A DNA stretch of 64,000 nt from Bacillota bacterium (GTDB taxonomy: Bacteria; Bacillota; Limnochordia; Limnochordales; DUMU01), in assembly GCA_012839805.1 (NCBI GenBank), contig DUMU01000024.1:1-64000 (forward strand). The letters run 5' to 3'. Numbering within the stretch: position 1 is the first letter of the stretch; every line of letters begins with the position of its first letter. The position numbers were made by a program, and so were the translations under genes. The notes below the pieces were generated by a model. The model saw nothing but the letters and a program-made list of their open reading frames with translations, was not told where the DNA came from and did not search any database. Shown piece by piece: positions 288-32,794 of this stretch.

Positions 288-536
288 ACGATGGTGTTCT
301 GGTGGGCACTTTCCAGGGGGAGTTGCGACTCACGGTCCCAAAGAAGGGCCTTCCTCCGTTTTTACGATCAGTTAGCTTTACGTAGGTGATTTCCTGCTGG
401 CGGCACCAAGCTCTTATGCCCTGGCGCGTGTCGCGTATGACACGGTGGAGCGGGAGAACGGCCTCGACTCGGACCGGCGAAGGAAGGCCAGGGCACGGGG
501 TTACGGGTCTGGGTGGAGTTGGTGTATCCGTGCACC
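288..536 (+). pseudogene. Possible frameshifted remnant, unknown family
   Basis: One plus frame reads a coding-like stretch (HDGVLVGTFQGELRLTVPKK and on) from about 288 and stops at a TAG near 381-384. The adjacent frame then continues from about the same point (YVGDFLLAAPSSYALARVAY, then VERENGLDSDRRRKAR) to a TGA near 547. The two join smoothly if one base is shifted near 380. There is no clear start codon and no recognisable domain. This is suggestive only and could be chance in GC-rich DNA. Confidence 0.25.
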
Positions 537-651
537 AGTGCCCGGCTGAGAATGGGAGCATCGAGCGCCTCCAGGCAACTTGTCAACTTGTGGTACAAGC
601 TCAGGCCAGGTGCCACGCCAGATACTACCAGCGTTGTGGTGGGAACTAACG

Positions 652-32389: not shown

Positions 32390-32794
32390 GAGCATGGGCG
32401 CGGCGGGGCGCAGTCCGGGGATGCCGGGGTTCGGCGAGCGCGGACCAAGGGCCCTGAGCCTCGGCGAAGGGGAGACCGGGCGAGCTGGGCCTTGGCGGAG
32501 CGGAGCCTCGGCGGAGCGGAGCCCGGATGGTGCAAAATGCGCCACTCACCGCAAGTTCGGATGGTGCAAAATGCACCAACCAGGGGGCCTGGAAGCACTG
32601 AGCCCGCCGGGGACCGGTGCCTGGTTGGAGGGGGCGCTGGGCCCTAGCTGGGCTTTTTCAGGTGTGAACTACCATCGGCCGTCGCCGCGCCCCTCCCGGG
32701 TGGTCTCTTGGGGGGCGGGATGGCGCATTTTGCACCATCGGCGAGGTCGTGGGTTGGTGCAAGATGCACCAGTCAATGCAGGGGGTGGAACTGA
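32390..32794. other. hypF-hypC spacer with four palindromes
   Basis: About 400 bases with no gene I can support, unusual inside an otherwise tight hyp cluster. It holds four copies of the 15-bp dyad listed separately. Confidence 0.6.
32529..32770. repeat. Four copies of palindrome GGTGCA-N3-TGCACC
   Basis: The copies are at 32529-32543 (GGTGCAAAATGCGCC), 32563-32577 (GGTGCAAAATGCACC, perfect dyad), 32722-32736 (GGCGCATTTTGCACC, inverted orientation) and 32756-32770 (GGTGCAAGATGCACC). Outer bases are conserved too (GGAT or GTT before). The spacing pairs them as two close doublets. This looks like an operator array for a dimeric regulator controlling hypC and downstream genes, or a small mobile repeat. 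The factor is unknown. Confidence 0.65.

Follow-up and report, generated by a model that had tools for sequence, protein, structure and literature searches.

A dispersed gene-less element with paired, fixed-pitch dyads at its ends in one family of Limnochordales

Proteins of nucleoid occlusion and chromosome organisation such as SlmA, Noc and MatP recognise tens of dispersed palindromic sites that form no regulon, and in this they resemble the elements described here; their sites are single, whereas the dyads reported below stand as pairs at a fixed pitch within an element of about 245 bp. Paired sites are known from NrdR, which recognises two palindromic boxes separated by a 15-16 bp spacer, with a tetramer binding both boxes and a preference for an integer number of helical turns (PMC12051234). 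MITEs are short, gene-less, dispersed and intergenic, with inverted ends and homologous copies, features that are shared by the present element (PMC10969869). The same holds for REP sequences and REPINs, which are dispersed extragenic palindromes in inverted doublets associated with RAYT (PMC3116915; PMC3733652). The letters of the present dyads were not found in the literature searched, and nothing describing them appeared among the work on REP-like sequences, Limnochorda repeats and MITEs.

The array considered here lies between hypF (end 32389) and hypC (start 32795; Pfam) in the window, the whole 64-kb stretch of DNA that was analysed. A sequence-only reading had described four palindromes at this place as two closely spaced pairs, one copy having a reversed A/T core, with no gene to explain them. 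All of this is borne out. The palindromes are found at 32529-32543, 32563-32577, 32722-32736 and 32756-32770, with 34 bp from start to start within each pair and 193 bp between the pairs; the copy at 32722 has a TTT centre, against A/G-only centres in the other three, and the array falls in the gap between the two genes. As 15-mers (GGTGCA-N3-TGCACC), two copies are perfect and two carry one mismatch. The longer 17-bp form TGGYGCA-N3-TGCRCCA has four exact matches in the window, namely the four dyads of Table 1, whereas 100 dinucleotide-shuffled sequences gave 0.00 on average. By itself, at two mismatches, the 15-mer does not significantly exceed expectation in the window (5 found vs 3.5 expected); the significance of the array lies in its near-perfect copies and fixed spacing. 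The element is drawn on the minus strand, after the reading direction of its core. No sigma-70 promoters were found in the hypF-hypC gap. Elsewhere in the window, a polymerase-beta-type nucleotidyltransferase gene (Pfam PF18765; 33155-33625) lies between hypC and hypD, and a SAM riboswitch (Rfam RF00162, 77.5 bits) occupies 2784-2944 on the minus strand.

Table 1. Positions in the window of the element in the hypF-hypC gap, its parts, and a lone dyad of the second format.
Feature	Position	Strand	Basis
Whole element, 244 bp, outer dyad to outer dyad	32528..32771	-	Several BLASTN matches of this copy (C10) in its own genome (G000) begin or end at the outer dyads; full-length homology to the C1 and C20 copies
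Dyad 1 (outer), TGGTGCA-AAA-TGCGCCA	32528..32544	.	
Dyad 2 (inner), TGGTGCA-AAA-TGCACCA, 34 bp from dyad 1	32562..32578	.	
Central core GAAAAAGCCCAGCTAGGGC, common to both subfamilies	32641..32659	-	Shared 14-mer score
Dyad 3 (inner), TGGCGCA-TTT-TGCACCA, opposite centre	32721..32737	.	
Dyad 4 (outer), TGGTGCA-AGA-TGCACCA, 34 bp from dyad 3	32755..32771	.	
Lone N4-type dyad TGGTGTA-TCCG-TGCACCA, upstream of gene 652-1200	520..537	.	The only N4 dyad of the window with a score of 11 of 12

The dyads recur throughout the genome to which the window belongs (G000; 2.78 Mb in 51 contigs), and comparison was made with a genome of the same genus (G001) and one from another genus of the same family (G002). 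With no pitch imposed and at most two mismatches, the 17-mer occurs at 44 places in G000 vs 11 for a reversed control. Pairs with 17 bp between the dyads and at most three mismatches occupy 21 places in G000 and 7 in G001; no such pair turned up in the remaining 58 of the 60 relatives, nor in reversed-pattern controls. In G000 these N3 pairs fall at 14 loci (C1, C6, C7, C10, which is the hyp copy, C13, C16, C19, two on C20, two on C23, C25, C27 and C49), eight of which have two pairs, and single dyads are present at C9 and C16:49170. When 72 genomes of the class were searched with a sequence model built from 28 pairs, strong matches came from G000 and G001 only, plus one weak match from each of two further genomes (E about 0.003 and 0.005). 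The element had no BLASTN match among plasmids and phages.

A weak match to the model on C14 led to a second format, consisting of 18-bp dyads, TGGNGCA-N4-TGCNCCA, with 16-bp spacers. The N4 spacer is one base shorter than the N3 spacer, which keeps the pitch at 34 bp. N4 pairs number 10 in G000 and 6 in G002, and none occurs in the other 70 of the 72 class genomes, G001 included. A more tolerant scan of G000 gives seven N4 loci (C14, C36, C46, two on C16, C41 and C21) with two pairs each, and a related N4 pattern is present in one of 398 genomes of the phylum, which is G000 itself. G000 therefore holds both formats, G001 has N3 without N4, and G002 has N4 without any N3 pair. Counted genome-wide, the two subfamilies come to about 21 loci in G000, instead of the hundreds of scattered copies that the sequence-only reading had held to speak against its proposals. 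The element is restricted to one family of Limnochordales, an order in Limnochordia (Bacillota).

Among 22 stretches of G000 scanned, all 28 distances of 80 bp or less between the centres of strong dyads are 34.0 bp; most of these stretches were chosen with a pattern that itself fixes the pitch, and the pitch-free 17-mer scan shows the same pairs. The exceptions are an extra dyad at C23, 41 bp away, and the C2 pair of G001 at 33 bp. At 10.5 bp per turn, 34 bp corresponds to 3.24 helical turns, which is not an integer. Helical phasing between the two arms was considered and rejected since arm distances are too variable. One G002 array (L110 2241-2547) is built of three N4 pairs, six dyads in all, whose half-sites are GC-rich (TGGGGCA, for example); between genera the motif shifts and the pitch does not.

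The interiors of the elements are related as well. Aligned over their full lengths, C1 and C10 agree at 95/119 core, 36/40 fixed dyad and 20/34 spacer positions, and C20a and C25 at 91/120, 38/40 and 21/34, these two element pairs having been picked for their similarity. A AAAAGCCCAGCTAG-like core lies near the element middle in 12 of 20 tabulated elements, and the best shared core 14-mer scores 128, where 12 shuffles reach no more than 108. The core is no universal feature of the elements, and the core alignment omitted C6, C16a, C20b, G1C3, C21, G2C2, G2C13 and G2C35. L164 was not among the sequences read. Because interiors and the central core are shared between elements, the copies form a dispersed family, and the miniature repeat family that the sequence-only reading had offered as one of its two proposals is supported by several copies with homologous interiors. 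A role of the core as a terminator, which AGCTGGGCTTTTT resembles in C10 and C23a, was rejected on inspection, its orientation being independent of the flanking genes.

The genes beside the elements share no common function, and promoter position is not favoured. By Pfam, the neighbours of N3 elements include D-Tyr-tRNA deacylase and a solute-binding protein, GNAT and FAA hydrolase, Uma2 and polysaccharide deacetylase, CorA (Mg transporter) and NUDIX, GH9 (cellulase), dehydrogenase E1, Na/Pi cotransporter and BacA (UppP), esterase, polyprenyl synthetase, spermine synthase and a trypsin-like protease, nitroreductase, Dus (dihydrouridine synthase), YmdB, and HypF and HypC. N4 elements are flanked by DUF2520 and 6PGDH, PCMT and glycerol-3-phosphate acyltransferase, and an ABC transporter and GH20, and the elements C16a and C16n lie between convergent genes. 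No nrd gene was found among the scanned neighbours of the dyad pairs, and the NrdR consensus differs from the present dyads. Genes were called with a home-made codon model, and gene starts are approximate. Two overlaps qualify the intergenic placement: in C20a the first arm extends over the called 3′ end of the cotransporter frame, and in C49 one dyad covers the final 6 bp of the Dus frame. In L022 (1512-2831), the Na/Pi cotransporter frame enters the first arm of the element and has a C-terminal end unlike that of the congener's protein; the element at C20a appears as if it had landed at the end of the cotransporter gene.

The dyads have the character of protein sites on double-stranded DNA. 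In the 28 oriented pairs, fixed dyad positions carry roughly 1-2 bits each and the middle of the 17-bp spacer almost none. A hairpin requires agreement between half-sites, whereas a dimer bound to double-stranded DNA yields independent half-sites. The left and right half-sites agree in their variable base in 18/40 N3 dyads, where independence predicts 18.6, and in 11/28 N4 dyads, where it predicts 12.8. RNA folding of 18 cores on both strands gives a mean z of about 0, with a single outlier (G2C2, z -3.1) whose core itself contains dyads. Structured RNA was thus rejected, the cores being free of a fold signal and Rfam returning in the window only the SAM riboswitch noted above, away from the array. 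Independent half-sites, cores with no fold and the lack of RAYT make the dyads look like sites for a protein on double-stranded DNA and not like hairpins, and the fixed pitch of the paired sites suggests that a candidate protein binds them. The "binding sites" of the sequence-only reading thus find support in the general sense from the independence of the half-sites and the fixed pitch.

The regulator that the sequence-only reading had in mind was a nickel-, redox- or H2-responsive one, which would act on the hyp operon. The position between hypF and hypC fits this proposal, and dyads are typical of dimeric regulators. The genome-wide context tells against it: the 14 paired-dyad loci lie beside unrelated genes, where an operator of this kind would have few copies, each in front of a hydrogenase or metal gene, such genes are missing from 20 or more further loci, elements such as C16a and C16n lie between convergent genes, and G001 has paired dyads, yet HypF and HypD chunks matched nothing there. 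A hydrogenase-specific operator is therefore rejected as extremely improbable, and the place of the element in the hyp cluster is incidental. Mobilisation as a REP/REPIN family by a RAYT transposase acting via single-stranded hairpins would account for extragenic palindromes in doublets, and a RAYT-bearing rumen Clostridiales genome does carry tandem TGGTGCANNNTGCACCA at a 34-bp period. Against this, the Y1 transposase (PF01797) is found in neither G000 nor G001, vs 5/14 control genomes, half-site bases do not covary, the columns beside the 28 pairs contain no GTAG or CGTC tag consensus, and the spacers of dispersed copies have no common sequence. REP/RAYT was rejected for want of a Y1 enzyme, of covariation and of a tag, and we give it almost no credence. 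The rumen genome, RUG534, has in its arrays (L046 6918-6968 and L047 2410-2460) tandem TGGYGCA-N3-TGCACCA alternating with GGTGCCAGACCCC at a 34-bp period, together with a Y1 transposase in the genome; these arrays cut against a tidy separation from REPs, and they come from a pitch-fixed search, so that chance selection is possible. Iteron-like replication sites, related to phage origins inside initiator genes, were also weighed. One phage contig (L114 3731-3936) has TGGTGCA-N5-TGCACCA twice at a 34-bp pitch and a third such dyad 152 bp further along, with an A+T-rich stretch between them, all inside a 240-aa frame. This link looked strong for the one contig; it was rejected because the 156 phage pairs listed show no preference for 34 bp, the GGTGCA-N5-TGCACC pitch among them running from 23 to 53 bp without excess at 34. 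Moreover, 154 of these 156 pairs lie inside open frames, whereas the present elements are intergenic save for the overlaps with two gene ends, and no protein family matches the 240-aa product convincingly. An iteron origin for the elements is accordingly judged highly unlikely. As for the phage contigs themselves (L114 and L167-L284), their paired GGTGCA-N5-TGCACC dyads in open frames look like in-gene origin iterons.

Positions of the element are mostly not shared between species. None of 14 regions of G001 orthologous to G000 loci contains a dyad pair of N3, N4 or N5 type (0/14; seven regions have both flanking genes nearby and the rest are one-sided), and 11 further regions of G000, G001 and G002 contain none either (0/11). 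The gap between the DUF2520 and 6PGDH-like genes holds four N4 dyads in G000 and three N3 dyads in G001. Its flanking genes correspond between the two genomes (223/377 aligned residues identical for DUF2520 and 264/299 for the 6PGDH-like protein), and an unconstrained alignment of both gaps scores 60.5, compared with a maximum of 38.5 in 200 shuffles. In this alignment three dyads each have a 1-bp gap at their centre, and the G001 pair has a pitch of 33, as expected from the loss of one central base with the 16-bp spacer unchanged. The 1-bp gaps in the dyad centres thus indicate that sites were maintained in place while the format changed. On the simplest reading of these sequences, the element would predate the split of the species and its dyads would have been maintained as other sequence drifted, with the format probably changing in place from N4 to N3. 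The argument for in-place selection is drawn from this one clear locus and one probable relic. The latter, the weaker case, is the lone dyad at the beginning of the window (Table 1), which is probably a decayed remnant of an array of the second subfamily; in G002, a gene that shares the protein start of the 652-1200 gene is preceded by three N4 dyads at 34-bp pitch. Decay is also seen in some other copies, namely in the second pair of C1 and in C20b.

These observations are brought together by a dispersed, gene-less element of about 245 bp whose paired, fixed-pitch operators would serve a putative dimeric protein and which would be kept where it lands, an explanation to which we assign about even chances. 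Each end of the element has one pair of 17- or 18-bp dyads with centres exactly 34 bp apart, the two pairs facing each other across the core. A dimer of the protein would recognise each dyad in its double-stranded form, dimers on neighbouring dyads at the 34-bp pitch would touch and bind cooperatively, and the facing arms could be bridged. The element has spread into many intergenic gaps, where selection would keep its dyads functional. The sequences themselves give the dyads, their pitch, the two formats, the dispersal and the retention in place at one locus; the protein, its cooperativity, the bridging and the benefit are inferred. Counting against paired operators are positions that are mostly not conserved, a pitch of a non-integer number of turns, decayed copies such as a selfish element would show, and the N3 dyad at the same pitch in the RAYT-bearing rumen Clostridiales genome. 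The main rival is a purely selfish MITE-like element whose paired dyads would be ends for a transposase or recombinase acting in trans, conservation then reflecting only the needs of mobility; we regard this as possible and less probable. It would account for the dispersed homologous copies bounded by outer inverted pairs with no gene inside, the congener's orthologous gaps without the element, the several half or decayed copies, the two co-existing formats, which could mean two enzymes, and the cotransporter frame at C20a, which enters the element where the congener's protein ends differently. It is opposed by an inconsistent target-site duplication, one of ten four-dyad elements having a direct repeat of at least 4 bp at matched offsets, although true element ends could lie elsewhere than at these offsets. 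No transposase gene lies between the arms in the G000 loci read, in a genome that is split into 51 unordered contigs, and mobility alone does not predict dyads that are kept and reformatted in place at one G000/G001 locus. The paired-operator explanation also has a more specific form, which we hold only tentatively, in which the element would be a chromosomal hub with two facing operator pairs at an invariant 34-bp pitch as its sole lasting content; a lineage-specific reader would have changed its spacing rule from four to three central bases, and the sites would have been rewritten in place by single-base indels in the dyad centres.

The element represents a fixed-geometry multi-operator arrangement in a little-studied bacterial class, and its recognition removes a tempting but wrong account of hydrogenase regulation. 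With N4 in one species and N3 in the other at a single locus, it offers a natural experiment on how a DNA-binding protein and its sites evolve together. Identification of the binder would make it possible to follow how a spacing rule changes across many sites and to tell a selfish element from one that serves the chromosome.

We class the element as a dispersed miniature element with operator-like ends, apart from the MITE and REP families. Its copies are short, dispersed and gene-less with inverted ends, as a MITE requires; it is placed in neither family because one defining feature of each was tested and found to be absent. Compared with MITEs, its ends are paired palindromic putative protein sites whose pitch is fixed at 34 bp and whose spacers are not conserved, target duplication is inconsistent, no partner IS was found, and dyads were retained and reformatted in place at one locus (PMC10969869). 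REP sequences and REPINs with RAYT differ in the base pairing between half-sites, the GTAG/CGTC tag and the RAYT gene, which the present dyads lack (PMC3116915; PMC3733652). NrdR box pairs come nearest, with two palindromes, a similar spacer and nearly the same architecture, whereas the present elements occupy about 21 loci, a complete element having four dyads, at a pitch of a non-integer number of turns; by analogy, NrdR shows as a precedent that such a paired-box architecture can work (PMC12051234).
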